From positions 1-14,921 of the forward strand of contig DXJI01000048.1 in NCBI GenBank assembly GCA_019057595.1: a stretch of DNA of 14,921 nucleotides. The letters run 5' to 3'. Of this stretch, positions 1 to 14,921 are shown one piece after another. Numbering within the stretch: position 1 is the first letter of the stretch; each line of letters opens with the position of its first letter. This stretch comes from Candidatus Thorarchaeota archaeon. GTDB taxonomy: Archaea; Asgardarchaeota; Thorarchaeia; Thorarchaeales; Thorarchaeaceae. The position numbers were made by a program, and so were the translations under genes. The notes below the pieces were generated by a model, which searched no databases, was not told the DNA's origin, and saw nothing but the letters and a program-made list of their open reading frames with translations.

Positions 1-977
1 ACGACTTTGCCAACAGGCCAACAGGGCAGTTTATTCTCAGCAAGGATTCCACAGAACTCTTCCTTCTTCTCAAAGTCCAAGAACACAAGCATTCCACCAG
101 CAGTTTCCGCACCAAGACCAGTCGACAGCTTGTGACCAAAGAACTCCGCAAGTTGAAGTGTTCCACGAATGACAGGGACTTGATCGATGATCACATCGAC
201 CCCGCTGAGAGAACAGACGTTACCAGCATGTCCGAGTAGACCAAATCCCGTGACATCTGTTGCAGCATGTACTCCAACAGCGCGCATCGCCTGAGCCACC
301 TCAAGATTGCTGAAAGTCATGATTCTGACAGCAGTTTCCTGCATTCGTTTCAGGTCGGATTCCTTGAACGCGGATAAGAGCGTGTCTCGCTTCTCATCCT
401 TGAGGTCCCTGTACGATCTCATCGCTGGTTGGATACCCAGTGGTTTTGTCAAAAGAATCACATCACCAGGCTTGGCGCCCTGTGAGTAGACAATGTCACG
501 CGGATGCGCAGTGCCAAGTGCAATCCCCCCGAAAACGGGGACAGGATTTGTGATTGTCTGACCACCTGAGAGCTTTGCTTCATGGCGTTCCATGAAACTT
601 CTCATTCCTTTGAGGACTCCAACGACAATTTCCTCAGGTAATTCCTTGGGATAAGCCAAGAACGCCTGAAGAGAGAGAATGTCTGTAGCACCCATGGCAA
701 AGATGTCGTTTGTTGCGTTACAAGCGACAATCTCTCCTTGAACGTGAGGGTCATCATGGATAGGTGTAAAGATATCCACGTTCTCTACAATTGCCACATC
801 ATCGTTGACGACACGGACCACAGCGTCATCACCAATTTCCTCCGTAGTGGTTGATCCGGAGGGAAGGATGCCAGCAGTCTGTAAGAGACGAGTGAGATCA
901 TCCTGGTTGACCTTACAGCTTCAGCCGTGAGAAGTTACCATTGCAGTCAGTCGTACATCCGGCACCTGGTGACTCAT
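1..977 (-). CDS. selD: Selenophosphate synthetase SelD, a probable selenoprotein (in-frame UGA = Sec); C-terminus beyond window edge
   Basis: SelD makes selenophosphate, the selenium donor for selenocysteine, from selenide and ATP. Reading leftward from ATG 977-975, codon 19 is TGA (923-921), and the frame then stays open to the window edge for about 306 more codons. The residues around it, SHG-U-SCKV, align with the catalytic loop of E. coli SelD (SHGAG-C17-G-C19-K20): the UGA replaces the catalytic Cys and the essential Lys follows. Further family motifs are present: GDDA, NATNDIFAMGA, SGGQT, DVTGFGLLGHA and ETAGGM. About 20-30 C-terminal residues should lie outside. The Shine-Dalgarno GGAGG (982-978) abuts the ATG, so GTG at 965 or an upstream TTG at 1013 could be the true start. 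The gene is divergent from rtcB. SelD is a recurrent selenoprotein, also in archaea; a 3'UTR SECIS would fall outside this window. A frameshift-free open frame makes a pseudogene unlikely. Confidence 0.93.
921..923 (-). other. UGA codon predicted to be read as selenocysteine
   Basis: This in-frame TGA sits exactly at the catalytic Cys/Sec position of SelD, followed by Ser-Cys-Lys. Homology on both sides of it (RLTAMVTSHG before; CKV, then the ATP-binding core after) argues for recoding rather than termination. Confidence 0.88.
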
Positions 978-985
978 CCTCCTTT
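978..985 (-). promoter_or_regulatory. Strong Shine-Dalgarno of selD, unusually close to the first ATG
   Basis: On the minus strand AAAGGAGG ends directly before ATG 977-975, leaving no spacer. The GTG at 965-963 has a 12-base spacer, which is long. The start of selD is therefore uncertain by a few codons. A small hairpin (GGGCA/TGCCC, 994-1007) lies just upstream in the leader. Confidence 0.55.
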
Positions 986-1070: not shown

Positions 1071-1106
1071 CAGGTGTCACGAAGCGGTGCGCCGTTGATA
1101 GAGAGA

Positions 1107-2561
1107 GTGGTTCTTTTGGAAGTCAAGAAAGTATCAGAGTACATGTACGAAATTTCACAGGACACACAACCTTGTATGAAAGTCCCTGTGACAGTCTTCG
1201 CTTCAGATCTTCTTGTGCGAAAGATGAAGCAGGACAAGACTTTCACTCAGGCGACAAATGCAGCATGTCTTCCAGGAATCTACAAGCACAGTATTGTACT
1301 TCCTGATGGACACCAGGGATATGGATTTCCTATTGGTGGTGTTGCAGCCACAGATTATGAGAGTGGCGTAATATCTCCCGGTGGTGTTGGATATGACATC
1401 AACTGTGGAGTACGTGTTCTCCGGACTAATCTTGATGAGAAAGATGTGCGACCAAAACTTCGTACCCTGATCGACACGCTCTTTCAAGAAATACCAACTG
1501 GAGTAGGTAAGCAGGGCAAGATACACTTGAGAAACTTCCAGGGTGTAGATGAGGTCCTCGCCAATGGTGCTGCATGGGCTGTTGGAGAGGGTTACGGTTG
1601 GGAGGAAGATCTAGATCATCAGGAAGCAAACGGTAAGCTGGAGATTGCCAACACTGATGATGTACCTGACTCTGCGAAGAGCAGAGGTCTCAAGCAGAGT
1701 GGTACTCTTGGTTCTGGAAACCACTTTCTAGAGATACAGCTGGTAGACGAGATTTATGATAATGAAGCCGCCAAAGCTATGGGCATCAACCGAAAGGGAC
1801 AGGTCATGATAATGATACACAGTGGTTCCCGAGGTCTGGGTCACCAGGTATGTTCTGAATACATCAAAATCATGACACAAGCTATGAGGAAATACAAGAT
1901 TGATGTTCCAGACAGGGAGCTCTGTTGTGCACCTACAACTACTCCCGAAGGACAGGCATACCTAGGGGCGATGAGTGCGGCAGCCAACTACGCCTTTGCG
2001 AATAGGCAGGTCATGATGCACTGGACTCGTGAAACATTCGCAAATATAATGGGTCAATCAGCGGAAGACCTTGACATGGGTCTCATCTACGATGTGGCTC
2101 ACAACATTGGCAAGGTTGAGGAGCATGACGTTGAGGGAAAGAGGCGAAAGGTTGTCGTCCACAGAAAAGGAGCCACCCGAGCATTTCCACCTGGACATCC
2201 AGAGATTCCAAGTAAATACCGCAATATTGGACAACCAGTCCTCATTCCTGGAACAATGGGTACCGCATCATACATTCTGATTGGCAATGAGAAAGGGATG
2301 GACCTGACTTGGGGTTCAACTGCACATGGTGCTGGAAGATTCATGAGCCGTTCCAGGGCCAAAAAGGAGTTCTTTGGAAAAGAAGTGCAGAGCAAGCTTG
2401 CCAGTGAAGGAATCATCGTCAGGGCAACCAAGGGGATAGTCATTGCAGAGGAAGCACCAGGAGCCTACAAGGACGTGGACGAAGTCGTAAAGGTCTCAGA
2501 TGCCGTAGGAATCGCCACCAAGGCGGTACGACTACGACCCATTGGCGTCATCAAGGGATGA
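1107..2561 (+). CDS. rtcB: RNA-splicing ligase RtcB
   Basis: GTP- and Mn2+-dependent ligase joining RNA 2',3'-cyclic phosphate (or 3'-phosphate) and 5'-OH ends; in archaea it seals tRNA exons after intron removal. The protein follows Pyrococcus RtcB from end to end: PGIYKHSIVLPDGHQGYGFP, then DINCGVR carrying the Mn ligands Asp97 and Cys100 (numbered from GTG 1107), GSGNHFLE, HSGSRGLGHQ, YDVAHNIGKVEEH, and HGAGRFMSR with the histidine that forms the GMP adduct. No intein interrupts it. The start is not certain: GTG 1074 gives 495 residues, GTG 1107 gives 484 (closest to the roughly 481 of the Pyrococcus protein), TTG 1116 and ATG 1143 are also in frame. I chose 1107 because of length and the TATA-like box at 1063. 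The 3' end overlaps the convergent transporter gene by 30 bases. Confidence 0.97.
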   Translation: MVLLEVKKVSEYMYEISQDTQPCMKVPVTVFASDLLVRKMKQDKTFTQATNAACLPGIYKHSIVLPDGHQGYGFPIGGVAATDYESGVISPGGVGYDINCGVRVLRTNLDEKDVRPKLRTLIDTLFQEIPTGVGKQGKIHLRNFQGVDEVLANGAAWAVGEGYGWEEDLDHQEANGKLEIANTDDVPDSAKSRGLKQSGTLGSGNHFLEIQLVDEIYDNEAAKAMGINRKGQVMIMIHSGSRGLGHQVCSEYIKIMTQAMRKYKIDVPDRELCCAPTTTPEGQAYLGAMSAAANYAFANRQVMMHWTRETFANIMGQSAEDLDMGLIYDVAHNIGKVEEHDVEGKRRKVVVHRKGATRAFPPGHPEIPSKYRNIGQPVLIPGTMGTASYILIGNEKGMDLTWGSTAHGAGRFMSRSRAKKEFFGKEVQSKLASEGIIVRATKGIVIAEEAPGAYKDVDEVVKVSDAVGIATKAVRLRPIGVIKG

Positions 2562-4417: not shown

Positions 4418-6145
4418 TCATTCATCAGATTCTTCAGATTCTCGAGCGTCAAAAAGACGGTCCAGTTCCGCTAGGGTCTCTCCATTAAGCGGAAGGTGCT
4501 CGTCATCATCATCTTCATTCTCAACAGCCCCTAATCCACCTACAGATCTGTCTAGAGGACCCAGAATGGTCTCCAGCTCTAAGAGTGATTCTTCGTCTAA
4601 CTGGTCTGTTACATCAGTCTCGTCGTCTATGGGGATAGCTTCATCGCTGCCAATGGCCTCCAGGGCAATGTCTATCTCTTCAGCAGAAACCTGGTCAATC
4701 TCAGCGACAATGATGTCATCGGCTTCCAGCGCCTCAAAAATGATGTCCTTGGCCATCTGTATGGCTTCAGCATTCTCCTCGACAACGAGTTCCGGACCTT
4801 CGTCAAAGTAAGAGTGTTCTTCTGCGAGAATCTCAGGTTCAGGAGCCTTTACTTCGACCTCTGCTTCCTCGTCCTCATCGATAGTTGGAACCTCAAAGTC
4901 TTCGACCTCTTCTGGTTCCACCTCTTCATCTTCAATCTCGACCTCAACAGATTCAGGTTCTTCAGGCGAGGGTTCTACATCGACTGTGATCTCCTCGACA
5001 ACCTCTTCTTCCTCTTCAGGTTCAACTTCGTCGACTACAACTTCTTCCTCTTCATCGATTTCCCCTATCTCTTCGACCTCTTCCTCAATTTCTACAACTT
5101 CTTTTTCATCAATAATCTCGTAATCTTCAATATCCTCTAAGACTCGCCCATCCTCGTCGACATACACTTCCTCAATGATGGTCTCATACTCTTCATCATC
5201 ATCCTCTTCTTCTTCCTCCTCAGCAGCTGTTTCGGCGATTGCCTCTTCTGTGGCCGCATCTGTGAATTTCAGGAGTTCAGATGCAGGGAGATCTGGAAGA
5301 GCAACTCCGACATATTGCGAGGCGGCGGTCATCAAGATTCTGAGCATCTCGTCTCGTCGATCTTTGTCGATGGCAACCATTGGGTATGTTGGGATGCCAA
5401 GTATCTTCTGGACCACTTCTGGTTTCATAGCATTGGGTTTGTCTTGCTTGTTTGCCATGGCAAAGACTGGAACCTTCGGTGCATCTCGTTTGATGAGTTT
5501 TAGAATGTCTTTGCTGATGATCACATTACGTAGACTCGAATCACAAACCAGGAATATGACGTCTGCACCGTGGAAATAGAATCTCCAGAGTGTTCGGAAC
5601 CGCTCCTGACCTGCAAAATCCCACAAAACAAGTGAGTAGTTACCAAAGCGGATGTTCTCTACAGTCTCCAGATTAAGTGCGATAGTTGGAACATACTGCA
5701 ATGGGGGAGTATCACCAAGAAGGAGGTGCAGTGTAGTTGTTTTTCCAACACCACCCTCTCCAACCAGGGCTATCTTCAGACGTGTGGTTACTGAGGGTTC
5801 GATGAGGGTCTCATAATTTTCAACAACACCCTCGATTCCCTTTTTCTTGAAAGTCTTCGTGAGAGCCTTCAGTGCTTGATCTATCTTCTCGTAGATATTG
5901 CCCTCATCCTCGCCCTTGTCTGTTACAAACACTAAAACCGAGTCGTCAATCCAATCTCTTCCGAGAAACTTGTGGTCACCAATAATTAATGGTAGTTCAG
6001 AAACCTCGTCGTGCTCAGATCTCAGGTCCTCCCTGGTGGATACAAACTCCTCCATAGCTTCGTCAGTTACTTCTACTGGCCAGTACTGTGTCGATGCTAT
6101 GATTTTACGGGTCGATATTCGTACAAGGAAGGTATTGTGGATCAC
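4418..6145 (-). CDS. Longin-like domain fused to Arf/Rab-like small GTPase with a long acidic tail
   Basis: Three parts are visible in 575 residues. Residues 1-110 look like a longin/profilin-type fold (IIASTQYWPVEV, LIIGDHKFLGRDW, DSVLVFVTD, then a long helix). Residues 120-280 are a small GTPase: G1 GEGGVGKTT (129-137), G2 Thr154 in YVPT, G3 WDFAGQE (175-181) with the Gln for hydrolysis, G4 NKQD (232-235); G5 is degenerate (MVAID instead of a SAK-type motif). Residues 300-575 are extremely acidic: 79 of residues 301-450 are Asp/Glu by my count, then two or three amphipathic stretches. No prenylation Cys or membrane segment ends the protein. Fused longin and GTPase resembles SRP-receptor alpha in layout, and hints at a membrane-trafficking or cytoskeletal switch in Asgard archaea. 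Start GTG 6145 has GGTGAT 8 bases upstream. Fold of the N-terminus is inference. Confidence 0.9.
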   Translation of the reverse strand: MIHNTFLVRISTRKIIASTQYWPVEVTDEAMEEFVSTREDLRSEHDEVSELPLIIGDHKFLGRDWIDDSVLVFVTDKGEDEGNIYEKIDQALKALTKTFKKKGIEGVVENYETLIEPSVTTRLKIALVGEGGVGKTTTLHLLLGDTPPLQYVPTIALNLETVENIRFGNYSLVLWDFAGQERFRTLWRFYFHGADVIFLVCDSSLRNVIISKDILKLIKRDAPKVPVFAMANKQDKPNAMKPEVVQKILGIPTYPMVAIDKDRRDEMLRILMTAASQYVGVALPDLPASELLKFTDAATEEAIAETAAEEEEEEDDDEEYETIIEEVYVDEDGRVLEDIEDYEIIDEKEVVEIEEEVEEIGEIDEEEEVVVDEVEPEEEEEVVEEITVDVEPSPEEPESVEVEIEDEEVEPEEVEDFEVPTIDEDEEAEVEVKAPEPEILAEEHSYFDEGPELVVEENAEAIQMAKDIIFEALEADDIIVAEIDQVSAEEIDIALEAIGSDEAIPIDDETDVTDQLDEESLLELETILGPLDRSVGGLGAVENEDDDDEHLPLNGETLAELDRLFDARESEESDE

Positions 6146-8735: not shown

Positions 8736-8742
8736 TGACGTG

Positions 8743-9243
8743 ATGAATTTGTGCCGTGTAAATATCTGGTGGGTGCTCTCACTCATCTCACTCTTGCTTG
8801 TAATCCAACCTGTTGGAGTTCTTGCAGAGAGTGAACCAGACACGGTCATCGCGGCAGAAGGAATCTCGGTTTCAATAGACTTTGGCAATGGAACCATTTT
8901 GGAATTTGACAACCTAAGCGGCTCCACAGTCCTCGATGTGACATCAGAGGTCGCTAACGTTCAAGTACAATGGTATGGACCATTGGCGTATATCAGGAGC
9001 ATAGAGGAAATCGTTGGTGAAGGACAAAACGGTTGGCAATACTGGGTGAATGGTGAGTTTGCCTCGATAGCTGTGAATCTCTATTCTCTCGCAGACGGTG
9101 ACACAGTGGATTGGATTTACTCAGGTCCTGTATCCCAATCACAAGAGGATCCAACACTACTTCCAGGGACATTGTTTGTGTCGATTTCTGGACTCGGTTT
9201 CATAGCTTTAGTCTACATTCAAACTACACGAAGGTTACAATAA
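8743..9243 (+). CDS. Secreted, C-terminally anchored DUF4430 (transcobalamin-like beta-grasp) protein
   Basis: Residues 5-28 form a signal peptide (WWVLSLISLLLVIQPVGVLA), followed by a domain of about 100 residues with SVSIDFGNGTILEFDNLSGSTVLD, then GQNGWQYWVNGEFASIAVNLYSLADGDTVDWIYSG. This pattern, especially the G-W-x-Y-x-V-N-G stretch and the closing DGD-x-V-x-W, is that of DUF4430, related to the C-terminal beta-grasp of transcobalamin. A hydrophobic helix (LFVSISGLGFIALVYIQ) near the C-terminus followed by RR anchors it outside the cell. Two N-glycosylation sequons (NGT, NLS). With an ECF-type S component two genes on, it may capture a small ligand, perhaps a corrinoid; that is inference. 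GTG 8740 directly before ATG 8743 is an equally possible start. The next gene begins 1 base after the stop. Confidence 0.8.
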   Translation: MNLCRVNIWWVLSLISLLLVIQPVGVLAESEPDTVIAAEGISVSIDFGNGTILEFDNLSGSTVLDVTSEVANVQVQWYGPLAYIRSIEEIVGEGQNGWQYWVNGEFASIAVNLYSLADGDTVDWIYSGPVSQSQEDPTLLPGTLFVSISGLGFIALVYIQTTRRLQ

Positions 9244-9244
9244 A

Positions 9245-10015
9245 ATGAGAAAAGGTATAACACTCCTGTTGGTAGTGGCTCTACTTTCAGTTTCCATCAG
9301 CAGTACACCTCAAGCAATGGCATACAGCTCAGAAATTGATGTAGATCACGCTATATTGTGGGAAATTGAATCCACTCCAAGTGATGCCTTCAACATGTAC
9401 TATACTGGAGGAGGGAATTGGCTTGCGCAGAATGAATCCACTATTTTCTTCGGTGTAGCCTCTGTCGGACAAGATGTCCTTGGTTCCCTAACAATTGGAA
9501 ATGTGACTGTTCTAGCAAACGACACCAATGTAGCAAAGGACCTCACACTCGGAGTATGGGGAACACCAACCGAATGGTGGCCAGGATTGATCATAGAAGT
9601 TGGTCTAAGTGAAATAGAGAATCTCAATGAGACAGCATATGCTTCTGCAGAGAGAGTTTCTGGCAACTATCTGAATGGAACAATGGCATCAAGCTATGAC
9701 ACAATCACCGACTCGAATGATCAGCAGCATCAATGCATAATTTTTGACTACGTGCAAGACTCAACAGGTTTTGGCGAACCCCAAATAACACACCTGGCTT
9801 ATTCTCTGGATTCTGGAATATTGATTGAGGCAAACACAAGCTATTCCTTTGGAGTCCCTTATGAGCTCGCTTTCAGGTTCGCAGGTGTTGCAACTCCTAC
9901 AATTGTAGATTTGTACCCACCGTGGGGAGGATTCATCACTTACCTAGGAGTTGCGGGAGGTCTTCTTGTAGCTCTGGTAGTTCTAGTGTTTTGGAGATTG
10001 AGTAAGCGTAGCTGA
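9245..10015 (+). CDS. Uncharacterised surface protein with signal peptide and C-terminal membrane anchor
   Basis: I do not recognise the family. Residues 4-26 are a signal peptide (ITLLLVVALLSVSISS...AMA), the middle about 200 residues are hydrophilic and probably beta-rich, and residues 229-250 are a membrane helix (ITYLGVAGGLLVALVVLVFW) ended by RLSKRS, so the body faces outward. Six N-glycosylation sequons (NES, NVT, NDT, NET, NGT, NTS) fit an exported archaeal glycoprotein. No catalytic motif is apparent. It starts 1 base after the DUF4430 gene and ends 19 bases before the ECF-type gene, so the three are almost certainly one transcription unit and this protein is likely an extracellular partner of the uptake system. 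Confidence 0.85.
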   Translation: MRKGITLLLVVALLSVSISSTPQAMAYSSEIDVDHAILWEIESTPSDAFNMYYTGGGNWLAQNESTIFFGVASVGQDVLGSLTIGNVTVLANDTNVAKDLTLGVWGTPTEWWPGLIIEVGLSEIENLNETAYASAERVSGNYLNGTMASSYDTITDSNDQQHQCIIFDYVQDSTGFGEPQITHLAYSLDSGILIEANTSYSFGVPYELAFRFAGVATPTIVDLYPPWGGFITYLGVAGGLLVALVVLVFWRLSKRS

Positions 10016-10034
10016 AAGGAACTGGGGCTGAAAC

Positions 10035-10661
10035 ATGAAAACTCGTCAACGCAGAAGAGGCATGAGTGATAGCAGATGGGTGTCAATAACTGCAATCATG
10101 ACCGCTCTTGCTCTAGTTGGCAATTATGCATTGGTATCAGTCCCAAATCTCGAGTTAGGTTCCAGTATTCTATTTGTGACAGCATATGTCTTTGGAGCAC
10201 AGATGGCAATCTGGTCAACACTCATCATGTCACTGTTGTTCGGAGTCATAAATCCCTGGGGAGGATTCATCCCTCAAATCTGGTTATCACAGGTCGTCGG
10301 ATGGTTCTATATCGTTGCAACTGGGGCGATTATGGGCAAGACTGGAAAGACTGGAAAAAGACTGGAACCTAGAAAATGGGAGCTTGCATTGACTGGAGCA
10401 GTCGTGACTTTCATCTTTGAACAGGTAACCAATATCGGATACTCTGTGACGTTTGGTGTCCCTTTCATAATCGCGATAACTGCCGCCATTCCATTTACAA
10501 TCATCCACATCATATCAAATGCCATTGTATTCTCACAGGTAGTTCCGATGTTGGATTCTGCTTTGACACGACAGCTCAAAGGGCTTATCTGGAATGCTGA
10601 GCCTGAACATGACAGTATAAGGGAAACTGAACTACAATACTATGGAGAAAACCGCAGTTGA
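10035..10661 (+). CDS. ECF-type transporter S (substrate-binding) component, probable
   Basis: A 208-residue membrane protein with about six hydrophobic segments. The first helix (SRWVSITAIMTALALVGNYALVSVPNLELGSSILFVTAYVFG) has the typical start of ECF S components: a small-residue helix with A-x-x-x-A pattern for docking on EcfT, then a loop and the phrase F-V-x-A-Y-x-F-G. Later NPWGGFIPQIWLSQVVGWFYIVATGAIMG and PFTIIHIISNAIVF continue the fold. S components bind a vitamin or metal outside and need the shared EcfT and ATPases, which are not in this window. The pairing with a DUF4430 protein recalls cobalamin-type systems, but the ligand is not settled by sequence. ATG 10035 is used; ATG 10062 is possible. 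The stop overlaps the next gene's TTG start (TTGA). Confidence 0.72.
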   Translation: MKTRQRRRGMSDSRWVSITAIMTALALVGNYALVSVPNLELGSSILFVTAYVFGAQMAIWSTLIMSLLFGVINPWGGFIPQIWLSQVVGWFYIVATGAIMGKTGKTGKRLEPRKWELALTGAVVTFIFEQVTNIGYSVTFGVPFIIAITAAIPFTIIHIISNAIVFSQVVPMLDSALTRQLKGLIWNAEPEHDSIRETELQYYGENRS

Positions 10662-14593: not shown

Positions 14594-14921
14594 TCACATA
14601 TTTTGGAGGCTGCTCTTGGCGAGGAGGGCGAAGGCCTCTTCGACGTTTTGTCCTGACAATGCACTTGTTTCGAGATAACCTGTGAGATTATTTTCACGCA
14701 CGAATTCCATGGCCATCTCACTAGTGATGATTCTGTGTTCAACAAGATCAACCTTGTTGGCTAGAAGAATGATGGGAATGCGTTCACCAAGGGCATCCTC
14801 AGTTTCCTTGATCCACTTTGGAAGCTCAATCCAGGTGCTTTTGCGAGTAGTGTCGAAAACGAGTAGGGCTCCCTTTGATCCACGATAGTAGCTACCTCGG
14901 ATAAAATCAAACCTCTGCTGC
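14594..14921 (-). CDS. Rab/Ras-like small GTPase, C-terminal part (5' end beyond window edge)
   Basis: Reading from the window edge leftward to TGA 14596-14594 gives about 108 residues: QQRFDFIRGSYYRGSKGALLVFDTTRKSTWIELPKW, the stretch after the G3 motif (W-D-T-A-G-Q in the family; only the Q-x-R-F part is inside); LLANKVDL is G4; YLETSALSGQNVEEAF is G5. The order and spacing match Rab/Ras GTPases. The P-loop and switch regions are outside, as are about 60-70 residues. The C-terminus ends AKSSLQNM with no cysteine for prenylation. Such GTPases are abundant in Asgard archaea and probably act in membrane or cytoskeletal control. The M42 gene follows 81 bases downstream in the same direction. 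Confidence 0.92.
   Translation of the reverse strand, partial: QQRFDFIRGSYYRGSKGALLVFDTTRKSTWIELPKWIKETEDALGERIPIILLANKVDLVEHRIITSEMAMEFVRENNLTGYLETSALSGQNVEEAFALLAKSSLQNM

Follow-up and report, generated by a model that had tools for sequence, protein, structure and literature searches.

A selenocysteine codon in a thorarchaeal selD gene and a three-way-junction model for the SECIS element at the selD stop codon of its relatives

The window, a 14,921-nucleotide stretch of DNA from Candidatus Thorarchaeota, opens with a selD reading frame that is interrupted by one in-frame TGA, and it raises the question of whether this codon is read as selenocysteine (Sec) and, if it is, which signal directs the reading. 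The frame lies on the minus strand at positions 1 to 977 and runs off the window edge about 23 codons short of its stop. Read from position 977, it is MSHQVPDVRLTAMVTSHG-UGA-SCKVNQDDLTRLLQ..., and apart from the TGA at 921 to 923 (minus strand) it contains no stop up to the window edge (codon 325). The window holds approximately the first 93% of the gene, given that the orthologues have 348 codons on the same numbering; full-length SelD is 344 to 348 aa on the orthologues' numbering. The translation scores above the curated NCBIfam cut-offs for SelD (TIGR00476, 227.2 bits with a cut-off of 125; NF010705, 292.1 bits with a cut-off of 291), and its Pfam domains also identify it as SelD. A plasmid search returned SelD proteins only, all of them less than 60% identical. 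In the translation, the UGA is followed by SCKVNQ (U-SCKVNQ...). We take its position to be that of Cys17 of Escherichia coli SelD and of the Sec of SEPHS2, and in human SEPHS1 it aligns with the T of K-G-T-G-C-K. The eukaryotic SEPHS2 presumably carries its Sec in a K/H-G-U-x-C-K motif, as the SelD of the window does.

A scan of genome contigs yielded 21 orthologous loci (20 titled Thorarchaeota and one titled "archaeon isolate"), whose proteins are 67 to 89% identical to that of the window. Even L001, the closest locus by protein, is only ~76% identical to the window at the DNA level, and therefore the species of the window is not among these loci. All 21 have TGA at the Sec codon. Two of the opened database homologues span this site, P0051 (343 aa) and P0061 (346 aa), and both have Cys there (HG-C-SCK). 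Compared with the window and summed over the 21 orthologues, codon positions 1, 2, and 3 show 47, 6, and 102 differences in codons 5 to 18 and 207, 142, and 408 in codons 20 to 52, which indicates that the sequences on both sides of the TGA evolve as protein. A sequencing or assembly error that turned TGC or TGT into TGA, or decay of selD into a pseudogene, might be entertained for a site that is known in the window from a single read-out and at which Cys occurs naturally in P0051 and P0061, but it has virtually no chance of being correct when TGA is found at 21 of 21 independent loci and, on either side, the remainder of the frame is uninterrupted and resembles protein-coding sequence. The combination of a conserved in-frame UGA and homologues with Cys marks selD as a selenoprotein gene, and these sequence comparisons confirm the assignment of Sec to the catalytic site of the window's SelD. 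Catalysis by this protein, the ATP-dependent formation of selenophosphate, is predicted. The original prediction had described a SelD with an in-frame UGA at the catalytic position, in a frame that is intact and conserved around the TGA, and had attributed the DNA to an Asgard archaeon; all of this agrees with the conservation at the site, with the open frame and its protein-like flanks, and with the Thorarchaeal titles of 20 of the 21 loci.

The start of the gene requires a revision of numbering. ATG977 directly abuts GGAGG, a Shine-Dalgarno-like sequence at 978 to 982 (minus strand); a stop falls within codons 1 to 4 in 6 of the 21 orthologues; and codon 5 (963 to 965, minus strand) is GTG in the window and in 20 orthologues and TTG in the remaining one. 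Therefore, selD probably starts at GTG965 and not at ATG977. The catalytic TGA had originally been called codon 19. It is indeed located at 921 to 923, but the number 19 counts from ATG977, and from the probable start the Sec is residue 15. A standard open reading frame call begins much farther downstream, at the GTG of codon 53 (819 to 821, minus strand), as does the database homologue P0004, and it had been anticipated that gene callers would truncate the gene in this manner. Database entries bear this out: among the 120 homologues listed (2972 found, 8000 scored), 118 do not exceed 326 aa in length and many are 296 aa, which matches a start at GTG 819 to 821, and 6 of the 8 that were opened begin downstream of the catalytic residue. 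Gene prediction for Sec-containing selD needs correction. Taken at face value, the callers' choice of this GTG and the many 296-aa homologues would fit a TGA that is a true stop, with a protein that begins at or near 819 to 821 and does not include the catalytic residue. However, codons 5 to 18 and 20 to 52 are conserved as protein, the homologues with Cys retain the N terminus, and in the relatives the gene is followed by a covarying SECIS element (see below), all of which make a true stop very improbable.

Components of the Sec machinery were computed in the genomes of the 21 relatives. Over their cut-offs, tRNA-Sec is found in 17 of these genomes, SecS in 19, and EFSec in 15. The tRNA-Sec and SelB searches also match all 14 control genomes (5 and 2 of which, respectively, score over the cut-off), and for this reason only hits over the cut-off are counted for these two components. 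The anticodon of tRNA-Sec is TCA in the six loci scanned with ARAGORN. PSTK-like proteins are encoded in 17 of the 21 genomes with scores of 112 to 151 bits, which is below the family cut-off of 290.5, and each of their genes shares a contig with a tRNA-Sec gene, at a distance within ~1 kb. EFSec, SecS, tRNA-Sec, and the PSTK-like gene are together on one contig in 13 of the 21 relatives, in one of which EFSec is just under its cut-off. No Sec component scores over the cut-off in two of the genomes (G008 and G021), although their selD has TGA. From the sequences of these relatives, we infer that the organism of the window would possess the full Sec machinery.

We are highly confident that the UGA at 921 to 923 encodes the catalytic Sec and that its signal is a SECIS element at the 3' end of selD, off the window, which takes the form of a three-way junction in the relatives. 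A signal of the bacterial type, i.e., a SECIS stem-loop in the coding sequence right after the UGA, is highly unlikely. All five stretches that were folded allow a stem of some kind, but for the 60 nt taken from the UGA onward the z scores are 0.05 (window), 0.07, 0.14, −0.45, and −0.98, and the five folds have no stem in common. The 3'-end element is described here from the relatives, all 21 of which have it right at the stop of selD. The SECIS had been expected in the 3' untranslated region past the left edge of the window, and its position at the end of the gene agrees with that expectation, but the element is not confined to the untranslated region: one strand of its closing helix is in the last codons of selD, and its core includes the stop UGA.

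When RNAalifold was applied unprompted to the 21 Thorarchaeal sequences, it found four helices: P1, UCC/GGA, P2, and P3. P1 is formed by GAGACC, which lies in codons for Glu-Thr (or Glu-Ala), paired with GGUCUC ~55 nt past the stop. The core has the form [A/G]UGA...GA, and both A/G-UGA and GA are present in all 21 sequences. Between UCC/GGA and P2 there are three unpaired bases and a GA...GA quartet, in which the 5' GA is supplied by the stop UGA; we take this to be a kink-turn arrangement. Above the core stands P2, the upper stem, which carries an AAA motif, and beside it is the short hairpin P3, of the type GCCGC-NGNRA-GCGGC. The P3 loop conforms to NGNRA in 21 of 21 sequences (UGCGA in 8, CGCGA in 6, CGCAA in 5, and AGUGA and AGCAA in 1 each). 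The UGA_GA core is shared with the type II SECIS of eukaryotic SEPHS2. In contrast to the selD element of the relatives, however, the SEPHS2 SECIS is a single stem-loop in the 3' untranslated region and functions with SBP2.

Because the 5' strand of P1 is coding sequence, its codons do double duty, serving both the protein and the helix. The Thr/Ala codon within P1 is ACC in 12, GCC in 6, and ACT in 3 of the 21 genes, and the three T's accompany an altered 3' partner. All 21 use TTC as the Phe codon, compared with 163 TTC and 117 TTT in the rest of these genes. The 36 selD genes that carry this element, which we refer to as Thorarchaeal-type, all terminate in UGA.

In the 21 Thorarchaeal sequences, changes on both sides of a pair occur at 14 of 24 pairs (3 in P1, 3 in P3, 8 in P2, and none in either UCC/GGA, where 2 of the 3 pairs are invariant, or the apical ministem), and 90.2% of cells are paired, versus 33.6 to 43.1% when the structure is slid by 1 to 3 columns. 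Unpaired A's are present, as is the apical ministem, which is paired in 83.8% of cells without double changes. The minimum-energy folds of nine chosen elements contain P1 and P3 in 9 of 9 cases (z scores of −1.3 to −4.2), with a different middle helix in L076. Covariation thus supports a model in which the relatives' selD element is a three-way junction, with P2 above the core and P3 at its side, closed by P1.

It is conceivable that P3 is an independent 3' feature outside the SECIS, for example one concerned with mRNA end formation or stability. P3 does sit at the end of the gene, and as a lone hairpin it is more stable than shuffled sequence at P < 0.05 in only 2 of 33 Thorarchaeal-type elements, 15 of 57 other selD elements, and 2 of 12 frhD elements. 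However, P3 is enclosed by the covarying P1, and its loop keeps the NGNRA form in every one of the 21 Thorarchaeal elements, and we consider independence of P3 from the SECIS to be unlikely.

A covariance model of the element, R1, finds one strong copy (at least 85.6 bits) per genome in the 21 relatives; its four other matches score no more than 26.2 bits. Under stricter filters, 37 of the 227 genomes of the phylum match R1, at 73 to 106 bits. SelD-like matches at an E value of ≤1e-20 are present in 126 of the 227 genomes, and most among the matches listed span one in-frame TGA. Five selD matches from other Asgard archaea (L070, L071, L128, L129, and L130, from G099, G097, G100, G098, and G095) contain one TAA besides the TGA, possibly because the gene starts after a stop, as it does in some Thorarchaea. 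The script used to locate cores finds one in 33 of the 36 Thorarchaeal-type regions; two cores (L177 and L179) are far from the stop and are false.

Among 65 selD 3' ends from other Asgard archaea, 54 have a core near the stop and were aligned (alignment A3); 2 that are too near the sequence end, 6 without a core by script, and 3 in which the core is too distant from the stop were left out. In these 54 elements, 90.9% of cells in P1, the C-stem, P2, and P3 are paired, versus 31.9 to 53.8% when slid, and 17 of 17 pairs have double changes. This count comes from a structure drawn with the sequences in view, and it is better judged by the slide control than by a shuffle control, which inflates significance for related sequences. 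Here P1 is mostly GAUG/CAUC and is placed after the stop, while the C-stem is UC/GA in 20, UU/AA in 12, UU/GA in 5, GU/AC in 4, and CC/GG in 1, with other pairs in the rest. At fixed columns, 43 of the 54 retain three or more of the 4 P1 pairs together with three or more P3 pairs, and 11 fail; in some of these 11 (e.g., L132, L139, L152, and L160), P1 and P3 can be seen by eye in a different register, and these are not counted. Unprompted RNAalifold on the gappy 54-sequence alignment found only P2. No SECIS family of Rfam matches in 20 loci at an E value of ≤1, the one weak match being to an unrelated family. L139, L146, L152, and L160 represent a second Asgard selD SECIS class, in which the apical loop is of the AAAAA type, the closing helix is CUCCA/UGGAG, and a hairpin of the GCAA/GCGA type is visible by eye. 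Also by eye, several frhD 3' ends have a GCAA-type hairpin after a UGA core.

Sec-containing SelD of Asgard archaea has already been published, so the window adds one member to a known group: Huang, Xiao, and Zhang (2024; PMC11227280) present it as the most widespread Asgard selenoprotein, Thorarchaeia included, with a Sec machinery of archaeal/eukaryotic type. As far as the text of that paper was available, the protein part is the same as ours, and the start codon and the database truncation are details added here. Its type II elements include GUGA_GA in Thorarchaeal selD and GAG_CUC-type pairs in selD lower stems, and it cites Mariotti 2016 for UGA stops overlapping AUGA in Lokiarchaeia. With these type II eukaryotic SECIS-like (eSECIS-like) elements, as given in the accessible text, the elements described here share the [A/G]UGA_GA core, the unpaired A's, the apical ministem, and the GAG_CUC lower-stem pairs. 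Unlike the type II models as that text describes them, they have P3 between the core and the closing helix, and the P1 of Thorarchaeal-type selD extends into the coding sequence. Backed by covariation as it is, P3 sets them apart from the single stem-loop of the type II eSECIS-like element. The excerpts available from two further sources give the Lokiarchaeal SECIS one apical loop (review PMC9499178) and repeat the two-type model (PMC13188914). The novelty of P3 is provisional, the comparison having been made without Mariotti 2016 (10.1093/molbev/msw122). Judged by the accessible part of PMC11881835, the SECIS of methanogens resembles that of the Asgard archaea in its 3' position, its kink-turn-like core, and its use with an archaeal machinery that lacks SBP2, and it differs in having a GAA_A bulge, in contrast to the UGA_GA quartet of the Asgard elements.

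How might such an element work? By the known pathway, applied here on the basis of the relatives, Sec-tRNA(Sec) would be produced by SerRS, PSTK, and SecS with the selenophosphate made by SelD itself. EFSec, together with a putative SECIS binder, would deliver Sec-tRNA(Sec) to the proximal UGA while the SECIS is intact. Kink-turns are the targets of L7Ae-type proteins, which makes L7Ae or L30e a candidate for this binder, and P3 may be an additional contact for it. In the 21 selD genes measured, the Sec UGA and the terminal UGA are 990 or 987 nt apart. With the stop UGA in the core and the Sec UGA 990 nt away, one mRNA would contain two UGAs with opposite meanings. We infer that the distal UGA would act as a terminator because the ribosome that arrives there has already melted P1 and the core. 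We somewhat favor the broader proposal that Asgard SECIS elements are three-way junctions in which the core and an NGNRA hairpin share a common helix, that the arrangement of P1 and the stop in Thorarchaea lets translation itself switch UGA from Sec to stop, and that P3 docks a replacement for SBP2.

SelD had been considered as the sole Thorarchaeal selenoprotein, and this idea was dropped in view of a VhuU-like mini-selenoprotein open reading frame (...VVRCYDC-UGA-LSCGAH...) that directly follows the NiFe hydrogenase large-subunit gene at 7 of the 9 loci read (L188, L189, L190, L191, L192, L193, and L195). Its terminal UGA lies within an AUGA core. By eye, a GCAA-type hairpin follows the UGA core of this gene, and in 5 of the 7 a script finds an overlapping hairpin with a higher score. 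The FlpD matches (PF02662) in 8 Thorarchaeal-type genomes have no in-frame TGA.

In the window, selD is adjoined by a divergent gene for the tRNA-splicing ligase RtcB (1074 to 2561, plus strand). By tblastn, each of the 21 orthologous loci has an RtcB match on the other strand upstream of selD, with only a partial match in L007 and L009, and the two genes possibly have a promoter region in common. Farther along are a gene for a protein of 575 aa that combines an Arf/Ras-like GTPase domain with a long, highly acidic tail (4418 to 6145, minus strand), a partial gene for a Ras-like GTPase (14594 to 14920, minus strand), and, at 8740 to 10661 (plus strand), a row encoding a DUF4430 protein, a protein without a Pfam match, and an ECF-type S component, which is perhaps a vitamin uptake unit.

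The finding in the window is right and is ordinary for its group, and the element beyond the window is the part worth following. The selD family makes two questions testable, namely, how archaea that lack SBP2 recognize SECIS elements and how the SECIS of eukaryotes originated. According to the available portion of PMC11881835, a lokiarchaeal SECIS was not functional in Methanococcus maripaludis, and P3 may bear on this failure, depending on which stretch was used there. The second covarying hairpin in Asgard selD is a concrete determinant to mutate.
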